Shown here one piece after another: positions 6,005 to 63,507 of a stretch of DNA of 64,000 bases (the stretch's first letter is position 1; each line of letters opens with the position of its first letter). The notes under the pieces were generated by a model, which saw only the letters and a program-made list of their open reading frames with translations, had not been told where the DNA came from and searched no databases. Both the position numbers and the translations under genes were made by a program. Origin of the DNA: Asterella californica (Eukaryota; Streptophyta; Marchantiopsida; Marchantiales; Aytoniaceae); contig JAYKYS010000004.1 of the NCBI GenBank assembly GCA_036924285.1, positions 25,328,001 to 25,392,000 on the forward strand, read 5' to 3'.

Positions 6005-6112
6005 AGTCGTGCGCATACACATCGCTACACAACATACATCGCTGTCGGAAGTACACCACATATAGACATAACACATCAACGATGTCATACACATATACAA
6101 GTGTATCATAAT
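6005..6112 (-). repeat. Repeat B2 of the old DMT copy
   Basis: Reverse complement of the 107-bp B repeat of the young element (20397-20503), with scattered substitutions. It is the outermost 3' part of the old element and lies next to the GACA duplication. The expected terminal TGTC (plus strand) has decayed to AGTC. Confidence 0.8.
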
Positions 6113-6403
6113 AATAACGATCTGCACTCACTCCACCGTGCCAACCGGCACTACATAAACACTAAAGTCGAGCCAAATCCACTCTTTGCATCAGAGAATC
6201 CAGATTGTGCTCACCAAGACTATCCACCATAACCAAGAGCTTGAAGGCTCAACTCAAAGAACTAAAAATCTACAAGTCTTACCAGCGAAGTATATCTTTA
6301 GTGGAGCTAGCCAAAGAACCCACCCTAACGGCACTAATGATCCTATCGGAACTAGCCACTACGCACTCGGTCAACCTAGTTGAGGTGCTAAACTGATGTG
6401 ATA
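6113..6403 (-). repeat. Repeat A2 of the old DMT copy
   Basis: Reverse complement of the A repeat (young copies 10534-10827 and 20103-20396). It differs from the old A1 at 27211-27490 at many positions, far more than the single difference between the young A repeats, which fits a much older insertion. Confidence 0.8.
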
Positions 6404-6405
6404 AT

Positions 6406-6512
6406 TGTAGTGCGCATACACATCCTTACATAACACACATTCGCTGTCAGAGATACACCACCCATACACATAACACATCGATGATGTCATACACATACAC
6501 AAGTGTATCCCA
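6406..6512 (-). repeat. Repeat B1 of the old DMT copy
   Basis: Second B repeat, separated from A2 by two bases (6404-6405), just as in the young element (gc, 20101-20102). Directly before it on the sense strand is a purine-rich word (GTTAAGGAGACG), the counterpart of GTTAGGGGGGCG in the young copy. Confidence 0.8.
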
Positions 6513-6559
6513 ATCGTCTCCTTAACTAGCGATTAGATCCCTCTAATTCTAGATAGCTC

Positions 6560-10096: not shown

Positions 10097-10529
10097 AACT
10101 CACTAAAGTGAGCAATGCTGTCCTAAGTCATCTCACTAGGTTCATCACCGCCATGAGTGACTTATCGACGACTCTCATTACTTGAGATTGTCGCCTTATA
10201 TCCAAGATGTCATCAACCGTGAGGTGCATGATCATCTCACTGCATCATGTGCGCGCTTGAGCACCTCTCTCGATAACAAGTTCGTCCATCACAATTGTGG
10301 ATGATGTGCACGAGACGTCACTCGAGAGTGATGCACGAGATCGCTGCATCCAGCAACACTATCGGTCCAACCCAAGACTACACTTGGTGCACACTTGTCA
10401 TCATCTGTGTATGAGCATCATCCAACAAAAATGTTCTCCAAGATGTACATTGGAGAATCCATTTGATGCATCTAGAGATGCCGTAAGATCCGTAACATCT
10501 CTCAAAACATACTAAAACGTGAGTCATGT

Positions 10530-10533
10530 AAAC
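10530..10533. repeat. Target-site duplication AAAC of the young DMT element (left)
   Basis: AAAC precedes TGTCACG at 10534 and recurs at 20504-20507 right after the element's terminal GACA. Removing the element and one AAAC restores gtAAACcct, which is what the young element's own methyltransferase gene has at the matching place. This is direct empty-site evidence for a 4-bp duplication. Confidence 0.9.
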
Positions 10534-10827
10534 TGTCACGTCAGTTTGGGCACCTCGACTAGGTTGACCGAGTGCGAAGTGGCGCATCCCGGTAAGGCCG
10601 TTAGTGCCGTTAGGGCGAGTTGGGGAGAGAGCCCACTAGGGGTAAACTTCGCAGGTAGGGCTTGGAGGCCTTAGTTCTTTGAGTTGAGCCTTCAAGCTCC
10701 AGGCTATGGTGGATAGTCTAGTTGAGTGTAACCTGGATTCTCTTCGCGTTTAGAGTGGGTTTGGCTTGACCGTTTGTGAGTAATCTTTGTTGTGGTGTTG
10801 GAGATGGTAATCTCTGTATTCAGATTA
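10534..10827 (+). repeat. Terminal repeat A1 (young DMT)
   Basis: 294 bp, identical to A2 at 20103-20396 except one C/T difference (10814 versus 20383). It starts TGTCACGTCAG at the insertion point. It is not followed by B, unlike A2. The sequence after its last base (10827) is unrelated to that after A2, so the repeat edge is exact. Confidence 0.92.
10673..10684 (+). promoter_or_regulatory. Segment in A1 complementary to the primer site (putative transcript 5' end)
   Basis: AGTTCTTTGAGT here is the exact reverse complement of ACTCAAAGAACT at 10827-10838, which begins at the last base of A1. In Tf1-type retrotransposons the first 11 bases of the mRNA pair with the primer-binding site right after the 5' LTR and act as primer. 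By analogy transcription may start near 10673. The old copy keeps the pairing with a compensated change. Confidence 0.65.
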
Positions 10828-10838
10828 CTCAAAGAACT
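10827..10838 (+). promoter_or_regulatory. Putative self-priming primer-binding site
   Basis: ACTCAAAGAACT lies at the A1/leader border, where a primer-binding site belongs. It does not begin with TGG, so no ordinary tRNA 3' end is matched. It pairs over 12 bases with 10673-10684. In the old copy the site is CTCGAAGAACT (plus 27200-27210 reversed) and its A1 partner is AGTTCTTCGAG (27350-27360 reversed), so base pairing is kept. Confidence 0.65.
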
Positions 10839-12777
10839 CAGTGCAGGTCGAGGCGGAGTTCAGTAAGAGCTCGCAGATCTGAAATCGGAAATCGTCCGCT
10901 GGTATCTTCGGGCGTTGTTGTTCGTGGTTGATTGTTTGGAGCTGTGATCGAGGTGTGTGGGCGCCGGGCTACATTGCTGTCGCAGATCGATTTGCTGTTG
11001 TTGGGGTCGAGTGGAGATTTCTGTCATGCGGAAGCGCTGCAGAAATTTTGCGGAATGTTCTTGAAGTGTGTTGTTGGAGCCGGATTGCGCGTTTGGGCGT
11101 AGCAGCTGAAATACTTGGCAATGTCAGGCCGGAGTGGGCTCTTTGGAAGCGCATTGGAGAGACGGTTCTAGCGCACTAAGTTTCGTGGAGTTTGGTCGAG
11201 GATTGAAGAAGTTATGGCATGTCGAAGTTCGATGCCGTGTGACCCGAAAGTACCAAAAGGCTAGTTACGTCAGATTTTGGTGCAATTTGTTGTGGAAACT
11301 CGAGTTTAGGAGTTTTGTTGTGTGTGTGTGCATTCGTGAAGTGTGTCTTGTGCATTCGCGAATCTGTTGTGGTGGTTTTCGGGTTGGATTTGGAGGTTCT
11401 TGCTGTTTTACGTCAGATTTTGGTCACCCGTGTGCACCCGCAAGCTGTTTTCGCTGTTTTGGAGCTTCTTTTGGTGCAATCTTCTGCAATTCGAGTTGGA
11501 GCCGAGTCCCTTGGTGTGTGTTGTACCTGTTCTTCTCTACTTCAAGCGGAGCGGAGCGGAGAGTGAGCGGGAGTATCGAGGTGTGGAGTGCGTGTTAGGA
11601 GGTGTTTAGAGGCTTCGAGGAGCAGAGGTGCGTGAGTGCGGAGGCGTGAGAGCGGAGTGCGAGAGTGCGGAGGCGGAGCGGAGCTGAGCCTGAGCCTGAG
11701 CCTGAGCCCGCGCCCGCCGCAAGCCAGCTTGCTGGCGTGCTTGAGAGAGGTATCCAAGTTCTAGTGTGTGGGAAGGGTAAAACCAACTGGTCACCCATCC
11801 CAACACTATTTCTGGACCTGGACTCCTGACTTTTCAGTCTTAGCTTTGGCTTTACCACTAGACCAATAGCTCTTGGTGTCCTACAGGGATGCGTGCAAGT
11901 ACTTATGGACTTGTTTAAGGTAGTAGGAGACCTTCTCGCACGTTCCTAGAGGAGTGGTAGGGCGACCCCATAGTATTAGGGGCAAGCTATAGTTGTGGTA
12001 GTGTTTGTCTATACCGTAGAGACGCGTATGTAGGCAGTTGGTGGCAGTTGTCTTGGGTGAGCTAGTAGAGCTACCACGTGGATGTTTTTGGAGCTACTAG
12101 AGGTGTGGACATCTAGTAAGTGACCTCCAGTGTCAGTTACGACAGTTGGTGACCATATATTGTGCATGTGGTCACCGACGAGGAGACGTCAGTCCGGGTG
12201 GGGCTGGATTTCTCTTTATGTGAATGTTTGAGTGTGGAGGGTTATCGTTTGGACTTCTTGTGGTTGGAACCCCTCCATATTCTGCTTCCTGTTTGTGCGC
12301 CGCGTTTGCTTGTGTTGGCGCTTGATTTCCGGAGTGAGTTCACTCCAGTGTGCTGTCGGTAGTGAGGCTGGAGTTGCGGACCAGTCAGACTACCTTTGTC
12401 TCTCTCACGGTGCGGTTGGAGTGACGACCAACAGACCGTGAGAGGCTGCCTGTGGTGATGGCAGGTACAGGTTGCCCTTACCTTGACCGTCCTAGTAGGG
12501 GATAGGTGAGCTCAGTAGGAGCGGGGTTAGGCAAGTGGTGGTTACGGTGGTGACGGAGATTGCGACTTCCGGTTGGAGAGTGTGCTAGCGGGATTCTCTC
12601 ATCACGGAGTTCTCGGGAGGTTCTGGTGGGGACTTCTCCGACAGTGGGTATACACGGAGTGGGGTGAGGTACCGACTACCTACACCATTACCGTCGGTTG
12701 TTCCAGAGGACGAGTCAGACGCAGACAGCGCGTTTTCTGGTGGTGAGTCTAGTGTCACCACATCGTTGTTGTGGGAC
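10839..12777 (+). other. Long untranslated leader of the young DMT element
   Basis: About 1.9 kb between the primer site and the first in-frame ATG of the Gag ORF. It holds GC-rich, low-complexity purine stretches (11540-11720), four tandem CTGAGC units at 11684-11707, and a tRNA/5S-like segment on the minus strand (11757-11880). Several short ORFs here look like shadows. The old copy has a matching leader at 25250-27199, so the leader is a family property. Packaging or translation signals are likely but cannot be shown by eye. Confidence 0.7.
11757..11880 (-). repeat. tRNA/5S-like segment (SINE-like) in the DMT leader
   Basis: On the minus strand TGGTCTAGTGG (11855-11865) fits the Pol III A-box consensus TRGYNNARNNG. 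An imperfect B-box-like word, GTCCAGGTCC, follows about 40 bases on. GGGATGGGTGACC (11789-11801) then resembles the end of the 5S rRNA internal control region. The old copy keeps this segment at 26158-26270, plus orientation. It may be a SINE captured by the ancestral element. Whether it drives antisense Pol III transcription is unknown. Confidence 0.45.
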
Positions 12778-15700
12778 ATGGACGAGATCTATGGGGCCAC
12801 GAAGGGGCCTCGACGTTACTCGGGTACAGTTGGTACCATTGAGCTGGATGACTTCATCCAGGAGTTCGACAGTTGGTGCGATCTGCAGCAGATGCGGAAC
12901 CCACAGCTGTTTACACCCTTCATGGCGTGGAAGGGTTTGTTCCAACACTTGGAGGGACCGCCGATGGACGATTATCATGAGTTCAGGCGAGATTACAATG
13001 TTGAGATCGAGTTGTGGAGACAACATTGGTCTCCCAACTACGTTTCTATCACTACTGGCGCAGTTTCGGGAGGCGTAGCACCTGCGAGTTCGGGTGCCAG
13101 TAGCAGTGGTGCAGCCACAGGTGGCGGAGTACCTACTACCGGTGCATCCACAAGTAGTGGAGCAGGTGGTAGTGTGAGCGAGATACCACCAGGGTTTAAC
13201 CCTGTGGTTCAGTTCTTCCAATGTTTGAGGAAGAACTATCAGGGTGTGCGGACCGACAAGTTGAGGAGTCTGCAGGAGTTCCAGCGGAAGACTGGAGAGA
13301 GCCTACGCGAGGCATTTACTCGCATGAGGCGGTTGATCAGCGTTACCCAAGGGGTGACGGAAGCACAGGCAGTCCAGTTCTGGTATGGGATACTAGACCG
13401 AGAGCTGCGTAGGAGAGTTAGAGATGCTACTCTTCTTAGAGATACCGCTCCGACGTTGGCGGTTGTCTTTAGTCTGGCTGAGCGGATTGAGCTCAACATG
13501 GTGGAGGAGAGGGTGGTGGTTGCTGGGTTCAGCAAGGAGACACCACATGGAGCGACCACCTCTTCTCGAGGATCACAGGCTACGCAACAGCGTGGTGGTG
13601 GTGGTAAGGATCGTGCAGAGCAGTCACGATCGCAGGGAGGTGTAGGAGGATCTGGTGGGCAGAAGCCCATGCCGTCCTTCTCTAGTCAGCAGCAAGCGGG
13701 TCCTTGCTGGACGTGTGATGGTCCTCATCAGCAGAGGGACTGTCCACAGAGGAGAGGTTATGAGACGTCAGGGACATCAGGGACGTCTCCAGCAGTACCT
13801 AGGCAATGTGAGCATTGCGGACGACCTGGTCACAGTAGTGACCGTTGTTTTGATCTCCATCCCGAGTTGCGGCAAGGGAAGGCTGATCGTGGACGAGGCG
13901 GAGGAGCTCAGGGAGGCCGTGGTGGTCGAGCTGGAGGTAGAGGTCCAGCACCTGGGAGAGGACCGGTCGGTCCACCGCCTGCTACGACGTCAGAAGCAGG
14001 TATGGCTGCTCGGATTGAGCAGTTGGAACAGAGGATAGCTAGTATGGCTATGGCTCAGCGGAGATCAGGTGGAACAGAGGCTTCCACGTCTTATGGAGGA
14101 GAAGGAGGCGACTTCGACTTCATGGCTGGTGTGGCGCAGATTGAGGCATCTGCGGCAGTGACTAGAGGTGCAGTACGTGCCTCTGAGCCACGAGGTGCGT
14201 CAGTGGAGTTGGATCCACAACGCGGGGAGGCTGGTAGACAAGCCAGGCTTCCTCAGTCGTTCACGCTATCGGAGGCGTTGAGGACCACATCTATGGTTCC
14301 TAAACGACCTACCGATGGTGCAGTAGAGTTGGAGGCATCGACATCCAGGAGTGGGTGTGATGTGAGTCCACCTTCGACGTCTGTGGATGCGACGTCGAAC
14401 CCGATGTTGGGGGCGGCTACAGCAGTTTTGCGAGCCCCACTATTCTCAGCCACGGATATGAGGGCATTGGGAGTCAACTTGGCTCCAGTGTTCCAGTTGG
14501 CGGCCACGCTCAGTGAGAGCGAGGATGTAGTTACCTCTAGTGCTGAGGTAGTTCAGCGAGAGGCGGTAGACGTGTCCATGGAGTCGAGGATCAGGACAGC
14601 TACCAGTGGTACTTGGCAAGCGACGGCTGCTAGATTAGATGAGTTACCAGCTAGGCCGGCGATTGACCGTGCTAGTTTGGCACCAGGTATGGTGTTGCTG
14701 GACAACAGAAGTGGTATCTTCTGTTTGGTGGCACCTTCTGGGAAAGTGTATCGACCCCAGAAGGTCTTGTTAGACTCTGGAGCCCAACCGTTGATGTTGG
14801 GAAAGGCGGCGTGTATTGGTTTGGGTCTGAAGAAGTCCGAGATAGAGAGATGTCCATTCCAGTTGCAGACATCTCTAGGGGGATCAGGAGGTACGGCTCT
14901 ACACATGACACGGGAGATGTTGACGGTGAGAGTTCGACCAGATCACCCTACGGATGGCTCTATGGTGAAGGCCAAGGCCATTGTTACAGCCGCAGAGTCT
15001 TATGATGTATTGGTGGGAGGTGCTGTGTTGTACCCTATGGGGTTCGTGATTGACTATTGGGCAGAGACAGCATCTTACAGACCAGGTTGGCAGTCCGATG
15101 AGGGACGAGTGAGCCGCTTACCAGTGCGGTTCAGTGCTAGAGTTGGGACGACGGAGCCTACACCAGGGACGATGGCATCTGTTGCAGGGTTCAGTTCGGT
15201 CATCACTTGGCCGGACGAGTTGTTGGAGGGCAATGCCCATGCGGAGGATACTCCGATCTATGAGGAGGTGGAGGACATGCCTAGCATGTCTACGTTAGTA
15301 CCATCTGCCTTGGATGTTCCACTCTGGAGTTCGAGTGGAGAGTTGCAGCAGTATGCTGATCAGTTGGTGCAGCAGGCTTGGAGTGAAGCTTTTGTACCAC
15401 CAGTAGAGGAACAAAGGGTTGTTCCTGCTACTGGCCCTGTGACCTTATCACCGTTGGATACGACTCCCATTGTGTGGCAGTATCCAGAGGAAGGTTTATG
15501 TGTGCTGGAGCTGTTTGGAGGGATCAGCACAGGTTTGGCTGCGGTATTGCAAGCAGGTATACAAGTACAGCGATACTTGTATGTGGAGAGAGATGAGATT
15601 GCGAGACGCATCTCATTGCGACATGTGGCACGTTTGGTGCAGAGATATCCTGAGTTGTTGCCCATATCAGCTGTTAGAGGATACCAGCAAGCATTACCGT

Positions 15701-16695
15701 CAGATATTTCGCTGCTGGGGGCGCAGGATCTCACGTTTGTGGGCACCATTCACTTGGTGATAGCCGGATGGCCATGTCAAGGTCACACGCGTGCAGGGAG
15801 AGGTCAGGGTTTACATGACCCGCGATCTAGGATGTTCTGGGAGATGTTACGGATCTTACGACATCTCCAGATGCATCAGGTGGATTCTCCAGCGTACATC
15901 TTGGAGAATGTTCCTTTGTTGGGTGATGCTCGTACACAGATGATGGCGAGTGTGCACCAAGTGCGGTCTTGGGTTGGACCAGCAGTGTTGTTGGATGCAG
16001 CGAGAGTGGGATCTCGTGCACATCGTCCACGGTTGTGGTGGACGAACTTGTTACCGAGAGAGGTGCTTAAGCGCGCACACGATGGAGTGAGACGACCAGC
16101 GCACCTCACGGTTGATAGCATCTTGGATGCAGGACGACGATCTCAAGTAGTGAGAGTCGTCGATAGGTCACCCATGGCAGTGGTGAACCTAGTGGGACGG
16201 CCCATGATAGCATTACCCACATTGGTAAGCTTTCCAGCGTCACATGCTTACAGAGATGGAGGACCTGGGCTTGTGTGGGATGCTCAATTACGGCAGTTGG
16301 TGGAGCCCAATGCCGATGAGAGAGAGCGAGCGATGGGTTTCACTACGGGTACGACGGCAGTAGCTTCGGTGTCGGAGGCTTCACGTCGTCAAGTATTGGG
16401 TCAAGCAATGGACTTGAATTGCTTGACATGGATTGTTAGCCTTGGATTGGCTGAGCAGCGTCGGATGCGATCGACGGGTGTTACTGCTCGAGCACTCTTG
16501 AGCTCTTTGCCTACCGGGTCGGTGGAGGCAAAGGCTGGGGGCGAGGCACGTGGAGTTCGTCATCCTTGGACATCATGGGATGTCATAGGAGAGAGTGTGG
16601 AGTTTGCAGCTAGAACTGCAGAAGTTTTACACACAGTAGCGGTGGAGGTTGTTGGTGGTGAGCAGAAGGAAACTGCTCCAGAGGCTGCAAGATAG
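12778..16695 (+). CDS. Gag - zinc knuckles - aspartic protease - DNMT3-type C5 methyltransferase polyprotein
   Basis: The frame is open from 12589, but the first ATG is at 12778 (MDEIYGATKG), also kept in the old copy, so I choose it. An earlier in-frame GTG at 12664 gives 1343 codons, used for numbering here. Gag spans about 50-280. Two CCHC knuckles follow (CWTCDGPHQQRDC at 348, CEHCGRPGHSSDRC at 382). A Gly/Arg-rich stretch precedes the protease, whose active site is LLDSGAQ (Asp 704). The methyltransferase fills 945-1300: cofactor motif LELFGGISTGLAAVL at about 947, catalytic AGWPCQG with Cys 1038, LENVP at 1081, RAHRPRLWWTNL, and a final RQVLGQAMDLNCL. The ISTGL and HRPRLWW forms and the closing motif resemble DNMT3 enzymes. 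All key residues are present, so it could methylate cytosine in DNA, perhaps the element's own cDNA. It ends in TAG, followed in frame by pol. Confidence 0.9.
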   Translation: MDEIYGATKGPRRYSGTVGTIELDDFIQEFDSWCDLQQMRNPQLFTPFMAWKGLFQHLEGPPMDDYHEFRRDYNVEIELWRQHWSPNYVSITTGAVSGGVAPASSGASSSGAATGGGVPTTGASTSSGAGGSVSEIPPGFNPVVQFFQCLRKNYQGVRTDKLRSLQEFQRKTGESLREAFTRMRRLISVTQGVTEAQAVQFWYGILDRELRRRVRDATLLRDTAPTLAVVFSLAERIELNMVEERVVVAGFSKETPHGATTSSRGSQATQQRGGGGKDRAEQSRSQGGVGGSGGQKPMPSFSSQQQAGPCWTCDGPHQQRDCPQRRGYETSGTSGTSPAVPRQCEHCGRPGHSSDRCFDLHPELRQGKADRGRGGGAQGGRGGRAGGRGPAPGRGPVGPPPATTSEAGMAARIEQLEQRIASMAMAQRRSGGTEASTSYGGEGGDFDFMAGVAQIEASAAVTRGAVRASEPRGASVELDPQRGEAGRQARLPQSFTLSEALRTTSMVPKRPTDGAVELEASTSRSGCDVSPPSTSVDATSNPMLGAATAVLRAPLFSATDMRALGVNLAPVFQLAATLSESEDVVTSSAEVVQREAVDVSMESRIRTATSGTWQATAARLDELPARPAIDRASLAPGMVLLDNRSGIFCLVAPSGKVYRPQKVLLDSGAQPLMLGKAACIGLGLKKSEIERCPFQLQTSLGGSGGTALHMTREMLTVRVRPDHPTDGSMVKAKAIVTAAESYDVLVGGAVLYPMGFVIDYWAETASYRPGWQSDEGRVSRLPVRFSARVGTTEPTPGTMASVAGFSSVITWPDELLEGNAHAEDTPIYEEVEDMPSMSTLVPSALDVPLWSSSGELQQYADQLVQQAWSEAFVPPVEEQRVVPATGPVTLSPLDTTPIVWQYPEEGLCVLELFGGISTGLAAVLQAGIQVQRYLYVERDEIARRISLRHVARLVQRYPELLPISAVRGYQQALPSDISLLGAQDLTFVGTIHLVIAGWPCQGHTRAGRGQGLHDPRSRMFWEMLRILRHLQMHQVDSPAYILENVPLLGDARTQMMASVHQVRSWVGPAVLLDAARVGSRAHRPRLWWTNLLPREVLKRAHDGVRRPAHLTVDSILDAGRRSQVVRVVDRSPMAVVNLVGRPMIALPTLVSFPASHAYRDGGPGLVWDAQLRQLVEPNADERERAMGFTTGTTAVASVSEASRRQVLGQAMDLNCLTWIVSLGLAEQRRMRSTGVTARALLSSLPTGSVEAKAGGEARGVRHPWTSWDVIGESVEFAARTAEVLHTVAVEVVGGEQKETAPEAAR

Positions 16696-16701
16696 CAGTC
16701 A
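16693..16701 (+). promoter_or_regulatory. Leaky-stop context UAG CAG UCA between the two ORFs
   Basis: The Gag-methyltransferase and pol ORFs are in the same frame. Only TAG at 16693-16695 separates them, then ten sense codons lead to ATG 16726. The six bases after the stop, CAGTCA, fit the CARYYA context of TMV-type readthrough. The old copy has the same nine bases at 9610-9618. Readthrough would give a Gag-methyltransferase-Pol fusion. Internal initiation at 16726 is the alternative. Confidence 0.7.
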
Positions 16702-16725
16702 ACGACTTCGTCTTCTACCTCTAGC

Positions 16726-19700
16726 ATGGTGACAGAGGATACTTGGGAGCCGGAGATCGGACCCAAGCTTATAGGAGAGGAGAGACGAAGAGTCCAAAGA
16801 TTCCTGAAGAGCTACAGGAATTGTTTTGCCTTCAGTATGAAGGATTTGGGTACCTTGAAGGGACCTGGTATACGGATCGACTTGGCTAATGACACGCCAA
16901 TCTTTCGACGTCCTTACAGGTACAGTGACATGGAGAGAGCCTTGATCCAGAGTCGGACTCAAGATTTGTTGGAGGCTGGGTTGGTGGAGATGTCGCATGG
17001 AGAGTATGCATCTGCCACAGTTATGCCAGCCAAGAAGGATATGTATGGCAACTACACGGATAGGCGGATGTGTGGAGACTACCGTCTTATCAATCGGCAG
17101 ACGAAGTCCGATAAGTATGCCATGCCGACACCTGAGGAGATCTTTGATGCAGTGGGGCATGTGAAGGTCTTCAGTACTTTGGATCTTCGAGCAGGGTATC
17201 ATCAGTTGCCAGTGAGAGAAGAAGATAAGTCCAAGACAGCATTTTGGGGAATTGACTCTCACGGCAAGGATTGTTTGTATCAGTGGCGGTTCTTACCATT
17301 TGGGTTGAAGAACGCCCCTGCTGAGTTCCAAAGGGTGATGGACAGAATCCTAGCAGGATTGGATTTTGTCAGATGTTATATTGACGACATCTTAGTCTAT
17401 AGTGCTACAGTGGAGGAGCACGAGAGACACTTACGAGATGTGTTTGAGCGGTTGAGAGCTCATGGGTTGAAGTTACACCCTGGGAAGTGTAAGTTCTTCC
17501 AGGAGTTGGTAGAGTATCTGGGCCACACCATCTATCCAGGTGGATTGGGTGTTCAACAGACGAAGGTTGAGGCTATTGCACGTATTCCACGCCCCACAGA
17601 TGTGAGTCGAGTTCGAGCATTTGTTGGTTTGGCGAACTTCTATCGTCGATACGTGAAAGGGTTTAGTGCAATTGCGAAGCCGTTGACCAAGCTGATGAAG
17701 GTGGACCAGGAGTGGCAGTGGGGAGATGAGCAGGAGCGAGCTTTTGTAGAGCTCAAGGATAAGTTGACATCTGCTCCCATCTTGAGGAGACCCGTTAGAG
17801 GGCGTCCTTTCCAACTGCACACCGATTGGAGTATGTTGGGACTTGGAGCAGTGCTGACTCAGCATGATGATGAGAAAAAGGAGTTCGTGGTGGCGTATGC
17901 CAGTCGCTCCAACAATTCAGCGGAGGCGAGGTATAGTTCGTATGAGGGAGAGTGTTTGGCGGCAGTGTGGGCTGTTGCACACTTTCGATGTTATCTGTTT
18001 GGGAACCCCTTTACTCTCATCACTGATCACCAGCCGCTCAAGTGGTTGATGGAGTCCGATAAGCTTACAGGGAAGCTTGCACGATGGGCTCTGATCTTAC
18101 AGGAGTATGACTTCCAGGTAGTACATAGACCTGGAGTTGCAAACCTAGATGCCGATGGGTTGAGTCGCAACCCGTGCACGAGTCAGCAGGATCAGACTGG
18201 GGCTCGATGGCATGACGAGGTTGATGAGAAGATAGTGCCAGGGTGGCATGCATCTGCCTTTCTTTGTGTGTTGGCCATGAACTCTAGTATGGAGGGCCAA
18301 GTCGTATCTTTCTCTGGTCAGAGAGTAGATGATGAGTCTCCAGATCCTGAAGGTGGAGATGGTGTTTCAGACCAGCGAGATATCCATGATGATGTGACCG
18401 TGATGGAGTATCTACGTACTGGTGTGGTAGTAAGCACAGTAAGTGCCAAGGAGCGAGATCGTGTCCTTCAACGAGCGAAGAGATTTCGACGAGAAGGACG
18501 ACATGTACTTCGAGTGTGGGGTGATGGGAGGGTACGGATAGTGCCACATCCATCCCAGAGGGCACAGTTAGTACGACATGCCCATGAGGAGTTGGGACAT
18601 TTTGGAGTGAAGCGTACGCATAGCTTACTCCAAGGACAGTATTGGTGGCGTGGTATGCACATCGATGTGCAACAGTTTGTCGCACGATGTGTGGTTTGTG
18701 ATCGAGTACGAGCATCGTTTAATGCTCCTACTCCACAGTTACACCCCTTACCGATTATGGGGTTGGGTTACCGTTGGAGTTTGGATTTTGCGGGACCCTT
18801 ACCGTTGACCGTACGTCATCACCGGTATGTGTTGGTGATGGTGGAGCACTTCTCCAAGTGGATTGAGTTGGTGGCATTACCAGACAAGGCGAGTGAAGGG
18901 ACAGCGTATGCGTTCTTAGATCGAGTGCTGAGTCGTTCTGGAGCACCAGCTGAAGTGCTGACAGACCAAGGTACAGAGTTCCTTGGTGAGTTTCAGGCCT
19001 TGTGTGATCAGGCGCTGATTGATCATCGGACTACATCTCGAGATCATCCTGAGGCGGATGGTTTGGCGGAGAGGGTAGTTCAGACGGTGAAGAGAGGATT
19101 GCGCAAGTATGGCTTGCAGAAGGGCCACTTGGGAGACTGGGATGTGCAGTTACCATGGTTGGCTATGGGCTACCGTTTTAGCCGACAAGCGTCTTTGGCT
19201 TCCTTCTCACCGTATTTCTTATTGTATGGCCGAGATCCAGATCTACCTTCGGCCATTCGTCGTGATTCTGCTGAGGTGCTGAACCTTGATGACCCGGATA
19301 TGTGGGTGAGAGCATGTTCTCAACGAGCAGAGACATTTCGGAGAGTTATGCCTATGGCTTTTGAGAACCTAGCGATTGCTCAGCATAGAGACACGTTGCG
19401 ATATGCGACTATCCGAGGAGGAGGTTATCGGCCATCGATTCGCAGGTTTCATCCTGGCGATTATATCTATCTACAGCAGACTGCACCGACGACGTTGGAC
19501 GTGACCGCAGGGCGCACTATTTTACGAGTGCGAGAGGTGTTACCTTCTGGAGTACTCATGTTAGAGGGCCGTGATGGTGTTGTGTGGAAGGACCATGTGC
19601 GTAATTGCGCGCCATGTCATCTTCCCAACATTGATGGTACCGTTGACCCAAGCTTAGCAGTTGTACGCGCGAGCTTGAGGTGTATGTTGTGTGGGTCTGC

Positions 19701-19821
19701 TGGTGGAGCAGCCCGTATGTTGGTGTGTGATGGTTGTTCGAGAGGTTGGCATATGTCATGTTTGACTCCACCTCTCAGTGTCGTTCCTACTGGACGGTGG
19801 GTTTGTCCTCGATGTATATAG
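16726..19821 (+). CDS. Pol polyprotein: RT - RNase H - integrase - PHD finger
   Basis: 1031 codons from ATG 16726, or longer if made by readthrough from ORF1. RT occupies about 80-290, with LDLRAGYHQLPV, FGLKNAPAEFQ and the YIDD active site (218-221). RNase H follows at about 360-460 with HTDWS and TDHQPLKW. The integrase has its HHCC zinc finger near 615-665 (GHFGVKRTHSLL, CVVCDRV). Its DDE triad is Asp 687 (LDFAGP), Asp 747 (TDQGTEF) and Glu 782 (LAER). The C-terminus (about 985-1031) is a C4HC3 PHD finger: CMLC, CDGC, WHMSC, CPRC. Gypsy chromoviruses carry a chromodomain in this place, so a histone-reading role in target choice is likely but inferred. All catalytic residues are intact. The old copy keeps the same order. 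Confidence 0.93.
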   Translation: MVTEDTWEPEIGPKLIGEERRRVQRFLKSYRNCFAFSMKDLGTLKGPGIRIDLANDTPIFRRPYRYSDMERALIQSRTQDLLEAGLVEMSHGEYASATVMPAKKDMYGNYTDRRMCGDYRLINRQTKSDKYAMPTPEEIFDAVGHVKVFSTLDLRAGYHQLPVREEDKSKTAFWGIDSHGKDCLYQWRFLPFGLKNAPAEFQRVMDRILAGLDFVRCYIDDILVYSATVEEHERHLRDVFERLRAHGLKLHPGKCKFFQELVEYLGHTIYPGGLGVQQTKVEAIARIPRPTDVSRVRAFVGLANFYRRYVKGFSAIAKPLTKLMKVDQEWQWGDEQERAFVELKDKLTSAPILRRPVRGRPFQLHTDWSMLGLGAVLTQHDDEKKEFVVAYASRSNNSAEARYSSYEGECLAAVWAVAHFRCYLFGNPFTLITDHQPLKWLMESDKLTGKLARWALILQEYDFQVVHRPGVANLDADGLSRNPCTSQQDQTGARWHDEVDEKIVPGWHASAFLCVLAMNSSMEGQVVSFSGQRVDDESPDPEGGDGVSDQRDIHDDVTVMEYLRTGVVVSTVSAKERDRVLQRAKRFRREGRHVLRVWGDGRVRIVPHPSQRAQLVRHAHEELGHFGVKRTHSLLQGQYWWRGMHIDVQQFVARCVVCDRVRASFNAPTPQLHPLPIMGLGYRWSLDFAGPLPLTVRHHRYVLVMVEHFSKWIELVALPDKASEGTAYAFLDRVLSRSGAPAEVLTDQGTEFLGEFQALCDQALIDHRTTSRDHPEADGLAERVVQTVKRGLRKYGLQKGHLGDWDVQLPWLAMGYRFSRQASLASFSPYFLLYGRDPDLPSAIRRDSAEVLNLDDPDMWVRACSQRAETFRRVMPMAFENLAIAQHRDTLRYATIRGGGYRPSIRRFHPGDYIYLQQTAPTTLDVTAGRTILRVREVLPSGVLMLEGRDGVVWKDHVRNCAPCHLPNIDGTVDPSLAVVRASLRCMLCGSAGGAARMLVCDGCSRGWHMSCLTPPLSVVPTGRWVCPRCI

Positions 19822-19993
19822 CGGAGATAGTCGATTAGATCTTTGCGTGATATGGATTGCAGACAGGCGACTAACGATGGGGCGATGTAGCACCCGGCCT
19901 CCTGATCCTTGCACCCATGAAGGTGTGTATCACGTAGTTGAGATATGGAGCTATCTGGAGTTAGAGGGACCTAACCGCCAGTTAGGGGGGCGA
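19822..19993 (+). other. 3' untranslated region with polypurine-like tract of the young DMT element
   Basis: No gene. GTTAGGGGGG at 19981-19990 lies three bases before B1. The old copy has a purine-rich word in the same place (sense GTTAAGGAGACG near 6515-6526). The position suits a plus-strand primer tract, which would put the start of the reverse-transcription LTR at B1 rather than at A2. Confidence 0.55.
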
Positions 19994-20100
19994 TTGTGGT
20001 ACACTTGTGTATGTGTATGACATCGTCCATGTGTTATGTGTATGTGTGGTGTACCTCTGACAGCGATGTATGTTGTGTAGCGATGTGTATGCGCACGACA
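19994..20100 (+). repeat. Terminal repeat B1 (young DMT)
   Basis: 107 bp, identical to B2 at 20397-20503 by eye, ending GCGCACGACA. It is followed by gc and then A2. Bases before 19993 differ from those before B2, which fixes the edge. Confidence 0.9.
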
Positions 20101-20102
20101 GC

Positions 20103-20396
20103 TGTCACGTCAGTTTGGGCACCTCGACTAGGTTGACCGAGTGCGAAGTGGCGCATCCCGGTAAGGCCGTTAGTGCCGTTAGGGCGAGTTGGGGAGAGAG
20201 CCCACTAGGGGTAAACTTCGCAGGTAGGGCTTGGAGGCCTTAGTTCTTTGAGTTGAGCCTTCAAGCTCCAGGCTATGGTGGATAGTCTAGTTGAGTGTAA
20301 CCTGGATTCTCTTCGCGTTTAGAGTGGGTTTGGCTTGACCGTTTGTGAGTAATCTTTGTTGTGGTGTTGGAGATGGTAATCTTTGTATTCAGATTA
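20103..20396 (+). repeat. Terminal repeat A2 (young DMT)
   Basis: 294 bp copy of A1 with one substitution and no gaps. It is joined directly to B2 without spacer, whereas A1 is joined to the internal region. Confidence 0.92.
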
Positions 20397-20503
20397 TTGT
20401 GGTACACTTGTGTATGTGTATGACATCGTCCATGTGTTATGTGTATGTGTGGTGTACCTCTGACAGCGATGTATGTTGTGTAGCGATGTGTATGCGCACG
20501 ACA
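20397..20503 (+). repeat. Terminal repeat B2 (young DMT)
   Basis: 107 bp copy of B1. It forms the right end of the integrated element, ending GACA, and is followed by the AAAC target duplication. Confidence 0.9.
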
Positions 20504-20507
20504 AAAC
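20504..20507. repeat. Target-site duplication AAAC of the young DMT element (right)
   Basis: Partner of 10530-10533. The sequence continues cctgatctc, which resumes the old methyltransferase on the minus strand. Confidence 0.9.
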
Positions 20508-21697
20508 CCTGATCTCTTCTAGCACACGTGTGACATCGACATGACCATTCGGCTATCACCAGTGAATGATGTCAACAATCGTGAGATCTTGCGTCCCCAT
20601 CAGTGAAATGTCCAATGGTAATGCTTGTTGATATCTTCAATAGCAGGAATCTGATGTTATGCAGAACGGCTGATATGAATAACAACTCAGGATATCTCAG
20701 CATCAAGCGTACCACATGACGCAATGAGAGACATCTCGCAATCTCATCTATCTCCACATATAAGTATCACTGTACTCATGTGTCTGTCTTCAATACCGCA
20801 GCCAAACTTGTGTTGATCTCTCCAAACAGCTCCAGCACACACACACCTTCCTCTGGATACTGTCATACAATGGAAGTTGTATCCAACGGTGATAAGGTCA
20901 CAAGATCAGTAGCAAGAACAAGTCTCTATTCCTCTATTGACGGTACAAAGACTTCACTCCAAGCCTGCTGCACCGACCGATCAGCATAATGCTGCAACTC
21001 TCCACTCAAACTCTAGAGTGAAACATCCAAGGCAGATGGTACTACCGTAGTCATGCTAGACATATCCTCATCTCCGGAGTATATTTCATATGGACATTAC
21101 TCTCTAACAACTCGTCCGGCCAAGTGATGACCGAATTGAACCCTGCAACGGATGTCATCGTCTCTGGTGTAGGCTTCGTTGTCCCAACTCTAGCACTGAA
21201 CCGCACTGGTAAGCAGCACGCTCGTCCTTCACTAGACTACCAACCTGATCTATAAGATGATGTCTCCGCCCAATAGTCAATCACGAACCTCATAAGGTAT
21301 AACACAACACCTCCAACCAATACATCATAAGACTCCGCGGCCGTAACAATGATCTTGGTCTTATCATAGAGTCATCTATGGGATGATCTGATCAAACTCT
21401 CACCGTTAACATCTCGCATGTCATGTGTAGAGCTGTACCCCTAGAGATATTTGCAGCTGGAATGGACATCTCTCCACCTCGGACTTCCTCATACCCAAAC
21501 CAATGCACGTCACCTTTCTCAACATCAACGTTCGGGCTCCAGAATCTAACAAGACTTTCTGCTGTCTATACACCTTCCATGAAGGTGCCACCAAACATAA
21601 GATACCACTTTTGTTGTCCAACAACATCACACCTGGTGCCAAACCAGACGGTCAATCGCCGGTCTAGCTTGTAATTCATCTAACTTGGCAGTCGCTG
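20508..21697 (-). pseudogene. Methyltransferase and protease part of the old DMT copy
   Basis: Minus-strand match to about 14630-15810 of the young element: the protease region (LLDSGAR still readable near 21530), the linker, the cofactor-binding motif and the catalytic loop. The catalytic segment near 20540 reads EWSCRCH where the young copy has GWPCQGH: the Cys is kept but the neighbouring Pro and Gln are lost. A one-base deletion just upstream shifts the frame. Match to the young copy stops at 21697. Confidence 0.8.
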
Positions 21698-22949: not shown

Positions 22950-24245
22950 TTTACTCGCATGAGGCGGTTGATCAACGTTATTCAAGGCGTGACGGAAGCA
23001 CAAGCAGTCCAGTTTTGATATGGAATACTAGACCAAGAGCTATATAAGAGAGTTAGAGATGCGACTCTCCTTAGAGAAAATTGATGGTTGTCTCTGGTTT
23101 GGCTGAGCGCATTGAGCTCAACATGCACTCAGCCAACATGGTGGAGGAGAAGGTGATGACTACTGGGTTCAACAAGGAGGTACCACATGGAACGATCACC
23201 TCTTATCGAGGATCACAAATTACGCAACAACGTGGTGGTGGCGGTGGTAGAGATCGTGTTGAACAATCACGATCTCAGAGAGGTGTTGGAGGACCTTGTG
23301 GGAAGAAGCCCATGCCGTCCTTCTCTAGTCAGCAGCAAGTGGGTCCTTGCTGGACGTGTTATGATCTCCATCAACAGAAAGACTGCACACAAAGGAGAGG
23401 TGGTTATGAGACGTCTAGGACGTCTCAAGCGATGTCTAGACATTGTGAGTATTGCGGACGACCAGGTCACAATAGTGACCGTTGTTTTGATCTCCACCTC
23501 GAGCTATGGCAAAAGAAGACTGATCGTGGACGAGGTGGAGGAGTTTAGGAAGGCCGTGGTGATCGAAGTGGAGATAGAGGTCCAGAACCCGAGAGAAGAT
23601 CATTCGGTCCATCGTCTGCTACGACGTCAAATGCGGGTATGGCTTCTTGGATTGAGCAGTTAGAGTGGATGATAGCTAGTATGACTATGTCTCAACAAAG
23701 ATCTGATTCGAGAACAGAGGTTTCCATGTCTTATGGAGGAGAAGGAGTTGACTTCGACTTCATGATTGGTGTGACACAGATTGAGACATCTACGGCAGTG
23801 ACTTGAGGTGTTGTACGTGTCTTTGAGTCACGAGGTGCATCAGAAGAGTTGGATCCACAATGCGAGGAGGCTGATAGACAAGTCAGGCTTCCTCAATCAT
23901 TCACGTTATCGGAGACTAAAGACCACGTATATGATTCTTAAAGAGCCTATCGATGATGTAGTGGAGTTGGAGATATCAACATCTAGGAGTGGAGGTGATG
24001 AGAGTCAACGCTCGACGTCTGTAGATGCAACGTCAAACCCGATGTTGAGGACGACTATAGCAGTTATGTGAGTCTCCATGGATATAATGACATTGGGAGT
24101 AAGCTTGTGTAACTAGTGTTATAGTTGACGGTCATGCTCAGTAAGAGCAAGGATGTAGTTACCTCTTGTGTTGAGGTGGTTCAGAGAGAGAGGATAGATG
24201 TGTCCATGAAATCGAAGATCAGAACGGCTATCAGTGGTATTATGA
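22950..24245 (+). pseudogene. Inverted gag segment of the old DMT copy
   Basis: Plus-strand sequence collinear with about 13309-14616 of the young ORF1. It carries the Gag C-terminal half and both zinc knuckles (CWTCYDLHQQKDC, CEYCGRPGHNSDRC) with frameshifts. The flanking old-element pieces on the minus strand stop at the positions matching 14630 (at 21697) and 13303 (at 24706). This piece therefore fills the missing interval but in reverse orientation. It is an inversion of the old element's own segment, not a separate insertion. Confidence 0.75.
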
Positions 24246-24705
24246 GCAAGCAGGCCCCTTGCATCCTTAGTATAGCGCCAAGAGCTGCAAATACCCAATC
24301 AACAATAGTAAGCTAGGGCCTAGGTTGATTTTTCCTTCGTTCGAGTCTCGTAACTTCACCACTAAGCGTCCAAATGAAATAGATCAAGTGCCCATAGAAA
24401 GCTGACAACAAGCTCTACTCATAATGAAAATGAAGATCCGAAGCTGTGCAAAAAGTCTGTAAGCTAGGGTCTAACTTGCTTTTCTCATCTTTCGAATCTT
24501 GTAACTTTTCCATTAGACGTCCAAATGAAGTAGACGAAGTGCCCATGGAAAGCTGACGATGAGCTCTATCCATTGATGCAATGAAAGTGAAGATCCGAAG
24601 TTGTGCAAAAAGTCTCATTTTTAGTCTCATGAGTGTATTTGGAGCGATAATGATAAGTATCGAAAATAAATTTTTTTAGTTAAGAGCCGATCCACGACAC
24701 GACAT
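24246..24705. repeat. G2 tail fragment with internal tandem duplication
   Basis: Matches 40-316 in the same orientation. Two tandem copies of about 140 bases are visible (about 24330-24455 and 24475-24620), sharing gtccaaatgaa, agctctac/agctctat and gaagatccgaag. It closes the right side of the inverted gag segment. Confidence 0.6.
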
Positions 24706-51975: not shown

Positions 51976-53340
51976 GCAGTTGAAAGTTTCACAGCGATAA
52001 AGAGACAAAAATAAAATAGCTTAAAGAGAAAAAATAAAAGTGACCTAAAAAACAAAAATAAAATAACGTAAAGAGAAACTAAAAGTGGCATAAGTTTCAC
52101 GGCGATAAAAAGACAAAAATAAAATAGCATAAAGAGAAAAAATAAAAGTGGCCTAAGTTCACGGTGATAAAGATACAAAAATAAAATGACATAAAGAGAA
52201 AAAAATAACATAAAGAGATAAAAATAAAATGGCGTCCTGGGCTTAATTCATTTCTTGCTTCCACAAAAAAAGATTTGCATAAAGAGACAAAACTTCGTGG
52301 TGATAAAGAGACAGAAATAAAATGGCGTCATGGGCTTAATCCATTTCTTGCTTCCACAAAAAAATAAAATGGCTTCCATAAAATAGCATAAAAAAATACA
52401 AATAAAATGACGTCGTGTGCTTAATCTGTTCCTTGCTTCCACAAAAAATAACATGACATAAAGAGATAAAAAATAGCAAAAAGAGACAAAAATAAAATGG
52501 CGTCGTGGGCTCAATCCGTTTCTTGCTTCCACAAAATAAAGTGGCTTAAGTTTCACGGCAATAAAAATAAAAAATAAAATGGCATCACGTGCTTAATCCG
52601 CTCTTGCTTTGATGACATCGTTGGCTTAATTCTTTTCTTGCTTCAACAAAAATATGACCTAAGTTTCACGGCGATAAAGAGAAAAAAATAAAATGGCATC
52701 GCGTGCTTAATCCGCTTCTTGCTTCGAAAAAGAAGTGACCTACGTTTCACGGCAATAGAGAGACAAAAGTAAAGAGAAAACATAAAATGGCATCGTGAGA
52801 CAAAATAAAGATAATAAGATAAACAAGATAAAGATAAAGATCTACGTTTCACGACGATAAAGAGACAAAAATAAATTCCCGTCGTAGACTTAATCCGTTT
52901 CTTGCTTCGATAAAAAAAGTGGGATAAGTTTCACGGTGATAAAGAGAGAAAAATAAATGGCATCACAGGCTTAATCTGCTTCTTGCTTTGACAAAAAAAG
53001 TGACCTAAGTTTCACGGCGATAAAGAAAAAAAAAATAGCGTCGCACGCTTAATCCGCTTCTTGCTTCCATGGCATCGCAGGCTTAATTCGTTTCTTGCTT
53101 CGACAAAAGAAAATGACCTAAGTTCCAGGCGATAAAGAGAAAGAAATAAAATGACATCGCGAGCTTAATCCTCTTCTGCTTCGACAAAAACAAATGACCA
53201 AAGTCATGACGATAAAGAAACAAAAATAAAATTACATCACGTGCTTAATCCGCTTCTTGCTTCAATCAAAGACATGGTCTAATCCGTTTCTTGCTTGGAC
53301 AGAAAAAAATTGCCATCGTGTGCATTCTGTTTCTTGCTTC
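51976..53340 (+). repeat. A-rich tandem array, unit roughly 80-90 bp
   Basis: About a dozen or more imperfect copies of a unit containing taagtttcacggcgataaag, agacaaaaataaaatgg, cttaatccg and ttcttgcttcgacaaaaa. Copies vary by partial deletion. Minus-strand ORFs through it encode only repetitive F/L/K-rich text and are not genes. Confidence 0.8.
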
Positions 53341-53402
53341 TCTTTTTTAGACATGCATATTCACCTCCTCCATCTTTCGATGGAGAAGGTAAATATGTTA
53401 AT

Positions 53403-53454
53403 GTTAATTTATTACCTAACCCTTCAGTTGGGAAGGGTTAGGTAATAAATTAAC
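53403..53454. repeat. Perfect 23-bp inverted repeat at the end of the array
   Basis: Arms 53403-53425 and 53432-53454 are exact reverse complements (starting gttaatttattacc) around a 6-base loop. Just before it is a smaller hairpin, ctccatctttcgatggag (53368-53385). A similar small hairpin and taataaatta word follow the second array at 54333-54402. Confidence 0.8.
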
Positions 53455-53879
53455 GCTTAGATAAATAATTATCTTATGATTGATGAATGTGAAGGCCTTG
53501 ACAGTCTTGGACTTGTACTCCCGGGAGGTTATCCTTTCACGTTAAACTTATGGGTTACGATCCTCTTTTTGTTGTACGTGTACTTCATGAAACTTTATAT
53601 TCTAAAAAGAGTTAAGACGGTTCTTCAAGTCTTCGGATTCAGTGCCACAGTTCTTTGCAATCTCAGTTTTCACTTATCCAACCTTAGCCATTTTAAACTA
53701 GTGATGTGACATAATCTGCTATACCTAAACTATGTCACATACTTAAATTAAATCTGTCACATACTTAATATTAGTATAGCCAGAAGAGACTATAAAGTAG
53801 TCTTACAACCAATGATCTAATGAATTTTAACTGCCGTTCTTATAGCTTGTCTTTTTTCTTCTCTGAACCGAAAGGGGAG

Positions 53880-54415
53880 TTTGGATGCATATTTAGCCTA
53901 AGTTTCACGGCAATGAAAAGAGAAAAATAAAATAATGTAAAGAGATGAAAATAAAATGGCAGCATGGACTTAATCCGTTTCTTGCTTCGACAAAAAAAGT
54001 GGTATAAGTTTCATCACGATAAAAAGAAAAAAATAAAATAGCATCGCGAGCTTAATCCGCTTCCTGCTTCGATGCTTAATTGTTTTTCTTGCTTTGATGA
54101 AAAACATGATCTAAGTTTTGACGGCGACAAAGAGACAAAAATAAGATGACATGGCGGGCTTAATCCGCTTCTTGCTTCGACAAAAGAAATGACCTAATCC
54201 GTTTCTTGCTTGGACAAAAAAAGATGGTGGTCTATAATTTCCAACTCGATTTTACTCATTCTCTCCCAAGTTCGAGTTGAAGATGCGGACGGTTGGAGAT
54301 GCTTATTTATTGAGGCATGCATAAACTGCTTCCATCTTCTGATGGAAGAGCGAAGCATCTACAATTTATTACATACACCTCTTCTCTCTTGGTAATAAAT
54401 TAATCATCACTTATA
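53880..54415 (+). repeat. Second, shorter copy of the array with its hairpin tail
   Basis: About three units (53897-54215) with the same words as the first array. Then comes a tail with gcatgcata, the hairpin cttccatcttctgatggaag (54333-54352) and taataaatta. This parallels the tail at 53351-53455, so array plus hairpin tail behaves as one repeat type. Confidence 0.65.
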
Positions 54416-56993: not shown

Positions 56994-57546
56994 TCCGAAC
57001 CTAATAGTGAAATTCAGACCTCTGAATCTTATTCCTCTCTTTGTCCCAACTGAAACTCTCAGAAAATTTGATCCAGCGTTGATCAAAACTCCTCTGTAGC
57101 TTTTCAAACGATCTCTCTCAAAAACAATTGCCTCTTGAGAGTAATTTCTCTTCAGAACAGTTTATTAGACAACATCCAAGCTTAAAACTCCTGCCCCTCT
57201 CCCTACGATGATCTCCCAATTCAATTTGTCAGCAATTTGATCTTCCCTCCGCCTCCTAGCTTCTCCTGCGTGTCCTCACACCCCCAATCCCTAATCCTCC
57301 TCCTTCCGCTTCAACTCTCTCAGAAAAATCCTTTGCAAACTGTCCCCGATCCCAAGCCACCGCAGGTATTTAACCTAAAAGTTAAAGCCCCAGCTTAAGC
57401 TGCCCCTGCTGTCCTTATAAGCGCAATCACTTATCAGAAGTAGGACCCTAGCTTAAGCTGCCCCCTGCTGTCCTTATGGGTACAGAGCTTTATTTACAAA
57501 GTTGGCCCCTTTTTAATACAAGTTTCACAGTTGTCTCCACAAACTC
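56994..57546 (-). repeat. LTR-like direct repeat of G3, left copy
   Basis: Matches 63507-64000 closely from tccgaacctaatag to ccacaaactc. It has one extra stretch of about 59 bases made by an internal duplication (cagcttaagctgcccc occurs twice here, once in the right copy). The LTR probably continues to the right past 57546, where the partner is off the window. An AATAAA on the minus strand near 56870 could be its polyadenylation signal, which would put the outer LTR end further left than 56994. Confidence 0.75.
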
Positions 57547-62244: not shown

Positions 62245-63507
62245 TCAAAAACTGTAATGAGTATCTGTCATCAGGACTCCGAACCTGGCATAATGAGACC
62301 CATCATTCATCACCTTTGTTTTCATTCGAACAGCGGTGATGTATGGTTGGCCCAGTATGACAGGATAGGAGGCAGACGACTGTACAAAGAAATGTTGATC
62401 AACCTCTACATCTCCAATCCTTACACGCATATTGGGACAAGCTCCGTATAACTCACCTTTTTGATTATTTGCAGCGCGAAGTACCCAACCATGATTCCTT
62501 TCGATTGGTCATTGCCCCTTCTCATACACCTCCTTAGAAATGATGTTGATCTCCGACCCGTGATCCACAAGTGCAGGTACTGGTTCAGAAAGTCCTCCAA
62601 GCCGGACATGCGTCTCTGTTGTCGCTCTTGCCCAGTGCTTCTCCTTAAAATCGCTATCTGCGCTTGACCTATCCTCTTCAAACTCTTCATCTTCATTCTC
62701 AATAACAGCAGGACCAGCAACCCATGCCTCATACTTATCATCTCTGAACTGATCAACACCAATAGCATCTACTGCTCCAACCATCTGACTACTTACTTGT
62801 TCAGTCAATACCTGTCTCTTTCTCTTCATGATGTCTATTATCAACTCATGAAACTCTCTCTTTGTGATACCAAGCACTTCATGAAGAATAAACTCAACTC
62901 TAGCATCCAAAATGCGTTGCTCTAGAACAGCACGCAAGTCTGTTGTTGTTTCGATATCTGCCGCTAACTTGTAAGCTGGAGCTTTCCCCTTCTCCTGTGC
63001 TGTAAACCTCTTTCCTCGTACTCTATCTGTAGCAGTAGTCTCTTGTGGTAAATCCTGTACACCTTCTATAGGATCTATTGCAGGTGGTGGAGCTGTAGAG
63101 GTAGAAGGTATATCCTCTGCAGCAGGAAATCTACCAGCTGGTACAGATGGTGATGGTTCCACTGCTCTCCTCCTCGTAACCCTCCGACGGTCACTGTCCT
63201 CTGGTACTCCTGCATCTAAATCAGAAGCGTCCCGTCTTCTTTTGTCTTCGATCATGGCATCTTGTTCACCACTCGTCTCTAAAAGCGCTCGAATAGAAGT
63301 TGCATCTATTGGGTCTCTCCATCCAGTAGCTCTCCTAATGCTTTTAGCACCTCTCTTCATCATTTCAACCGGAACCTCAACAGCCTACTCAACCATAGTT
63401 GGATTAGAGCGCACCTCAACTCTCCCAGTATATACATCAGCCTCCGCAGAACCCGCAGTCATCGCTGTAGTATTCGCACCAGTAAGTGCTAGAAGAGAAC
63501 TCCTCAT
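62245..63507 (-). pseudogene. Gag-protease of G3
   Basis: The frame opens at an ATG (63507-63505), right at the edge of the LTR-like repeat. It has an in-frame TAG at 63387-63385, then continues MMKRGAKSIRRATGWRDP and on to 62509. The protease active site is PALVDHGSEINIIS, with DHGS where DTG or DSG is usual. The second half of the protease (VRIGDVEVDQHFF, SYPVILGQPYI) is in another frame at 62430-62245. So one stop and one frameshift inactivate it. Confidence 0.75.

Follow-up and report, generated by a model that had tools for sequence, protein, structure and literature searches.

The split direct repeats of a Ty3/gypsy-type element in Asterella californica suggest integration from joined reverse-transcript ends

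How does a retrotransposon with a DDE integrase enter the genome if it does not carry a full long terminal repeat (LTR) at both ends? In the textbook account LTR elements and retroviruses integrate as linear DNA, and their two-LTR circles are treated as dead ends. The question is raised by a 9,970-bp element at positions 10534-20503 of a 64,000-nucleotide stretch of Asterella californica DNA (GenBank assembly GCA_036924285.1, contig JAYKYS010000004.1, positions 25,328,001 to 25,392,000 of the forward strand; hereafter the window). Between its target-site duplications (TSDs) the element has the order A1-internal-B1-gc-A2-B2. A1 and A2 (294 bp each) differ at a single base, position 281, B1 and B2 are identical across all 107 bases, and GC sits between B1 and A2. 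The element begins TGTCACG and ends GCACGACA, with AAAC on both flanks. Its insertion target was an older, inverted member of the same family, in which the matches left and right of the insertion overlap by AAAC; that older copy also has the repeat order B1-A2-B2, with a TSD of TGTC, its last base changed, that was recognized by eye. Separately, a segment of the older copy (22950-24251) is inverted relative to the remainder. An earlier reading of the window from its letters (the original prediction) had described the repeat identities, ends and TSD of the younger copy, which are exact to the base, and a like arrangement in the older one, which is borne out. It took the integrated DNA to be a two-LTR circle opened inside the LTR.

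The arrangement is family-wide. Throughout the genome (516.7 Mb, 773 contigs), exact patterns matched 302 junctions of A with the primer site and no ordinary 5' LTR junction (A-B-primer-site), and on the latter count an ordinary LTR element was rejected. At least 40 A2-B2 places were among the matches listed, 30 of them given as loci with the window copy included. These 30 high-scoring loci were found by a query spanning the joint, are hence biased to canonical joints (one of the 30, L029, is deviant) and were excluded from the joint rate given below; 29 read internal-B1-gc-A2-B2 and one is a solo A-B with the TSD GTCC. A 4-bp TSD at the A1 start and B2 end was present in 14 of 14 pairs from a first batch of 20 probed places, the other six having no A1 start in the fetched stretch. 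A second batch of 20 further A-primer-site places gave 10 of 10 for pairs with both ends intact and in reach, including the internally truncated L086. Seven places of that batch had no 3' end in the fetched stretch, and three rows have no scripted TSD: L100 has a 5'-truncated A1, L104 has a mutated B2 end with ATGT on both sides by eye, and in L108 the stretch stops inside A2. With the window copy, the total is 25 of 25 copies with an intact A1 start and B2 end in reach, all with 4 bp. A clean TSD can be missing where the build is different, as in the mirror copy L061/L070 described below and the 5'-truncated L099/L100. Another solo A-B, L060, has the TSD GAGT and lies ~120 bp from the 3' part of another copy, with telomere-like TTTAGGG bases between.

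The original prediction had named two outcomes that would speak against it, ordinary repeats at both ends of most copies or TSDs at other positions, and neither was seen (29 of 30 loci, 25 of 25 TSDs and no A-B-primer-site junction). An ordinary LTR element rearranged by accident, or an assembly artefact, draws on nothing beyond the rarity of the arrangement and is the least credible of all the explanations considered here, given hundreds of dispersed places with the same junctions, no ordinary 5' LTR junction by exact pattern, and an older copy in the same order.

By its proteins, ends and TSDs the element is gypsy-type, by its termini it is not a standard LTR element, and it resembles DIRS elements in its circle logic without being one of them. 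The TG...CA ends with a short TSD, and the order reverse transcriptase, RNase H, integrase with a Ty3-related DDE core, are as in Ty3/gypsy elements. Its integrated copies have A at the 5' end and B-gc-A-B at the 3' end in place of a full LTR at both, which are the split direct repeats A1...B1-A2-B2. Open reading frame (ORF) 2 resembles Ty3 in its reverse transcriptase, RNase H, and zinc-binding and DDE integrase domains, its top structure match being Ty3 Gag-Pol (7q5b). The one Pfam match of ORF1 is a C5 methyltransferase, with structure matches headed by DNMT3A and 3B; two CCHC-type knuckles and a DSG protease-like motif were noticed by eye, with no Pfam match for either. ORF1 and ORF2 share one frame with a TAG between them, and TAG CAG TCA is unchanged in five other places at four loci. 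Because this context is constant and fits the leaky-stop motif UAG-CARYYA, the TAG is a probable programmed readthrough stop.

A circle is the accepted integration form of DIRS-type tyrosine-recombinase retrotransposons, and we know of no TSD in DIRS, Ngaro or PAT elements. In the part of the literature consulted, split direct repeats mark Ngaro, PAT-like and VIPER elements, whose order is likewise A1-internal-B1-A2-B2 (PMC6681497). That likeness is what recommends a DIRS-like tyrosine recombinase acting on a circle, the element's own or one supplied in trans, an explanation that we rejected as scarcely believable: a Pfam scan of the two long frames, ORF1 and ORF2 (E up to 0.001), gave no tyrosine recombinase domain but did give a DDE core, and 4-bp TSDs flank all 25 copies whose ends are intact and in reach. 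What is common to DIRS, Ngaro, PAT and VIPER elements and the present family is the split repeats; here they go with a DDE integrase, TG...CA ends and 4-bp TSDs. The original prediction likened the order to DIRS/Ngaro elements only, which is right as to order, but a DNMT-bearing Gypsy element with this order had been published earlier: the legend of Fig. 4 in de Mendoza et al. 2018 states a DIRS-like repeat order for KnitGypsy-Dnmt3 of Klebsormidium nitens (PMC5890265). The two elements share a Gypsy-type polyprotein, a Dnmt3-like domain and the repeat order (the K. nitens repeats compared by description only), and ORF2 shares 47% identity with the K. nitens DNMT-RT protein P0054. The host is different, and the KnitGypsy-Dnmt3 account, in the part of that article available to us, is without an analysis of TSD, joint, primer or mechanism. 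For joint scars or a circle route in Gypsy elements of this type we found no account in searches of the open-licence literature, which could have missed one.

The putative primer-binding site CTCAAAGAACT, directly 3' of A1, lacks the initial TGG of a tRNA site and has a perfect 11-nucleotide (nt) complement, AGTTCTTTGAG, inside A at 10673-10683; the expectation for a given 11-mer within 403 bases is ~1e-4. A tRNA primer was set aside on these two features, and reverse transcription looks to be self-primed by the element's own 5' repeat, in the manner of Tf1. In a relative with 78% identity in A the two stretches read TCGAAGAACT and AGTTCTTCGA, with a compensated change mid-helix. The base after the primer site is G in 25 of 46 matches (overlapping loci counted twice), therefore three further bases can pair, one as G-U. 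The Tf1 self-primer also has 11 nt, and Tf1 and Tj1 have an ordinary LTR at both ends. Tj1 is described as self-priming, its primer site being complementary to part of its 5' repeat (PMC4600332), a likeness to the present family, which is unlike Tf1 and Tj1 in having no full LTR at both ends. This putative primer site and the putative purine tract (AGTTAGGGGGGCGA, directly 5' of B1) together define a 403-bp LTR of order B-gc-A, a frame that we keep from the original prediction with one correction, that the primer site is not tRNA-like and complements the element's own repeat.

We consider it quite probable that this is a Ty3/gypsy-type element whose frames of reverse transcription and integration are offset, its ends being joined and then cut inside the LTR. 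The transcript's own AGTTCTTTGAG would prime reverse transcription at the site after A1, plus-strand synthesis would begin at the purine tract before B1, and the product would be a linear complementary DNA (cDNA), B-gc-A-internal-B-gc-A, with the 403-bp LTR. The A end and B start of this cDNA would be united by DNA end joining, and it is to that joint that the genomic scars point. The DDE integrase would then cut within the primer-side LTR at the palindrome CGACA-gc-TGTC, with loss of gc, and A-internal-B-gc-A-B would be inserted with a 4-bp TSD. The retained B1-gc-A2 would keep an uncut integrase site in the next transcript. That a closed circle forms, and that joining precedes cutting, we infer from scars in genomic copies. 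Towards the stronger statement, that end-joined two-LTR circles are the obligatory integration form of a gypsy-type element with a DDE integrase, which would cut them at an internal CA-gc-TG palindrome, we lean only slightly.

Given these start sites, A2-B2 must be made by end joining, because the cDNA would be B-gc-A-internal-B-gc-A; therefore scars are expected at A2-B2 and none at the templated B1-gc-A2. Length changes are in excess at A2-B2. Among 40 places reached through their 5' ends the joint is visible in 22, and in six of them, no two alike, an indel falls precisely on A2-B2: fillers of 22 nt and of 11 nt (the latter resembling the B start), a 36-nt deletion, +T, +A and a net +2 (TGAC). 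For other 16-nt windows the mean is 0.25 copies with an indel and the maximum three, reached at a GA deletion common to three copies, and the B1-gc-A2 spacing is constant in 23 of 23 copies reached through their 5' ends (p 0.009 against 6 of 22). Genome-wide, a loose pattern matched 309 A2-B2 joints; 100 of them comprise 79 canonical joints, 3 with a substitution only and 18 with a length change, four of the last being copies already among the six. The loose pattern for B1-gc-A2 matched 835 places, and none of the 100 listed has a length change, 9 rows without letters being judged by span; a substituted spacer (AC or GT) is found in 14 of the 91 lettered rows. For the listed rows, 18 of 100 against 0 of 100 gives a Fisher p of 3e-6. 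In several additions the bases (A, GA, GGGCGA) equal those that close the purine tract before B1, which would follow if the plus-strand start varies. A1 ends normally in L029, L082, L110 and L112, four deviants whose 5' end could be read.

The repeats of single copies bear on the same joint. B1 and B2 show 1.26 differences within a copy and 3.31 between copies (0 of 10000 shuffles), as compared in 19 of the 22 copies with L094, L104 and L130 omitted for an incomplete B1 or B2. With variants thus shared inside a copy, one cDNA is the probable source of both B1 and B2. The excess of scars at A2-B2 in turn makes it probable that the two ends of the reverse transcript are joined there anew, the integrase cutting inside the repeat at CA-gc-TG. 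The alternative is templated linear copying, in which the whole of A1 to B2 is transcribed and copied and the split repeats are inherited with no end joining. It would fit the canonical joint in 79 of the 100 listed and the recurrence of single-base changes, and the identity of A and B could reflect gene conversion, but it does not provide for filler, purine-tract-like bases and indels exactly at A2-B2 with none in any listed B1-gc-A2 spacer, for a primer site and purine tract that flank A1 and B1 and not the element ends, or for TSDs on truncated and snapback copies. The variation at A2-B2 led us to reject templated copying, which appears very improbable.

Three aberrant copies, L086 and two snapback copies, fit joined molecules opened at CA-gc-TG. 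The internal part of L086 ends at 8572 and is followed by T-rich filler, B2 and the TSD CATG, best read as a truncated end joined to the B start and opened at the only B-gc-A. The snapback copies start with the reverse complement of B and finish with A, CTCAAAGAACT and the reverse complement of A (139-1); their TSDs are TTCT (L071/L062) and GAAG (L067), and L067 has a rearranged internal part and has lost most of the B before A. Both snapback copies resemble plus strands folded back on the self-primer complement, with the B start joined to a truncated internal end and opening at an inverted A-gc-B. In both, the cut site is the one nearest the free B terminus and the internal one is spared. These copies would also be a useful record of self-primed reverse transcription. 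L100 and L123 have the build A-internal-B without A2-B2 and could be one-LTR circles or products of B1-B2 recombination, either of which fits (in the batch of L123, 7 of 20 places had no 3' end in the fetched stretch). Further rearrangements were seen in L063 and L064, with two A ends head to head and with A and the primer site joined into the internal region in a manner like autointegration.

Several observations weigh against the proposed account. At the joint, 11 of the 18 changes are single-base (five +A, five +T, one +G) and could be explained by slippage or inheritance; without them the comparison becomes 7 of 100 against 0 of 100 (p 0.014). In an earlier 15-copy set, in which A1-A2 differences were 2.9 within a copy and 6.1 between, a copy's own A2 was nearest or tied to its A1 in 9 of 15, and B hardly varied. 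As for priming, a change in the self-primer is uncompensated in L051 and in L058, and in the minimum-energy fold of the RNA from self-primer to primer site the two stay unpaired. Lastly, mirror copies would be expected about as often as the others because a symmetric two-LTR circle has two identical sites, and one was found against 302 A-primer-site junctions where about half is predicted. The exact search for the mirror-form 5' side (A-B-gc-A-internal-B), a pattern that misses mutated mirrors, matched six places, of which one is genuine (L061/L070) and the other five are the two snapback copies and three other rearranged copies. The genuine mirror copy has an altered joint with gc kept at the B end and no exact TSD.

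From the near-absence of mirror copies it follows that opening is strongly directional, the site on the primer-site side being almost always chosen. Assembly of the integrase on the primer-side LTR while the other LTR is single-stranded would explain this direction. With joint scars and aberrant copies as independent support, the original prediction's two-LTR circle opened inside the LTR by a DDE integrase is the best account of the family; what stands of it is joined ends opened at B-gc-A, a symmetric free circle being disfavoured by the single mirror copy. Cutting could also come first and joining later. The integrase would then act on the primer-side B-gc-A while this is the only finished duplex, cut it and hold both new ends, and the released 107-bp B piece would be ligated by its start to the far A end within the complex, with no free closed circle. 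Such an order would account for the use of the site near the free B terminus, snapback copies included, and for the near-absence of mirror copies, at the cost of a 107-bp fragment that has to be held and rejoined; the sequences do not separate it from circle-then-cut. We regard it as unlikely, and joining before cutting remains our preferred order.

Related DNA forms are known elsewhere. The bacterial circles of IS3/IS30 type have abutted ends and a short spacer, as here, that are cut by a DDE enzyme, with no reverse transcription. Retroviral two-LTR circles have a palindromic CA..TG junction and vary at it by deletion or insertion, and they are considered a dead end in the sections of the two articles drawn on here (PMC1905944, PMC11054761). 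The same sections report that HIV-1 integrase cuts the palindrome of the two-LTR junction in vitro (PMC1905944), and that a 1984 claim of circular retroviral precursors was displaced by linear DNA (PMC11054761). The CA..TG palindrome is common to both cases; here it is the structure of a whole family that points to joined ends.

The features of the element are collected in Table 1.

Table 1. Positions of the element's features and of the older copy in the window
Feature	Position	Strand	Remarks
Left TSD	10530..10533	+	AAAC
Repeat A1	10534..10827	+	5' end of integrated element; begins TGTCACG
Putative self-primer	10673..10683	+	AGTTCTTTGAG; within A1, complementary to primer site
Putative primer-binding site	10828..10838	+	CTCAAAGAACT; adjoins A1 directly
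ORF1	12589..16695	+	stop-to-stop frame, 1368 codons; DNMT3-like C5 methyltransferase domain
Stretch matching DNMT3A structures	15496..16053	+	query residues 13-198
In-frame TAG between ORF1 and ORF2	16693..16695 (context to 16701)	+	context TAG CAG TCA
ORF2	16696..19821	+	reverse transcriptase, RNase H, DDE integrase, PHD finger
Integrase core (rve)	18769..19050	+	
PHD finger	19681..19815	+	ORF2 C terminus
Putative purine tract	19980..19993	+	AGTTAGGGGGGCGA; directly 5' of B1
Repeat B1	19994..20100	+	
GC spacer	20101..20102	+	separates the CA of B1 from the TG of A2; would be an integrase site left uncut
Repeat A2	20103..20396	+	
A2-B2 joint	20396..20397	+	probably re-formed in every cycle through end joining
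Repeat B2	20397..20503	+	3' end of integrated element; ends GCACGACA
Right TSD	20504..20507	+	AAAC
Older nested copy, same family	about 6005-27490	-	B1 6406-6513, A2 6167-6401, B2 6006-6111

Among the best 120 of 1523 matches, named relatives of ORF2 occur in Calypogeia fissa (83% over 72% of ORF2), Riccia sorocarpa (81% over 50%) and Marchantia (82% over 41%), which would suit a liverwort host; no relative was found in viral contigs. The long 5' leader has an antisense open frame of 116 codons (11595-11945) with no tRNA or Rfam match. No tRNA genes were found in the window, and Rfam at gathering scores had no match over 10300-20800. Elsewhere in the window, direct repeats of ~550 bp at 56994-57546 and 63507-64000, 95-96% identical and 6.5 kb apart, probably belong to another, ordinary LTR element, and an irregular array of A-rich repeats with units of 65-100 bp lies at 51984-54225.

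If the proposed account is true, the circle route, which was proposed for retroviruses in 1984 and abandoned, could be put to a direct test in nature, in a successful family that seems to depend on the joining of its ends and on an internal cut by the integrase. The family's end-joining scars lie at one fixed joint and can be read across many genomic copies. Split direct repeats would be the genomic mark of an offset between the frames of reverse transcription and integration, whichever recombinase is used, and would so gain a mechanistic meaning outside the tyrosine-recombinase elements. The family would also illustrate how DIRS-type elements could have arisen from a gypsy-like ancestor in which a tyrosine recombinase replaced the integrase, providing a testable bridge between gypsy and DIRS.

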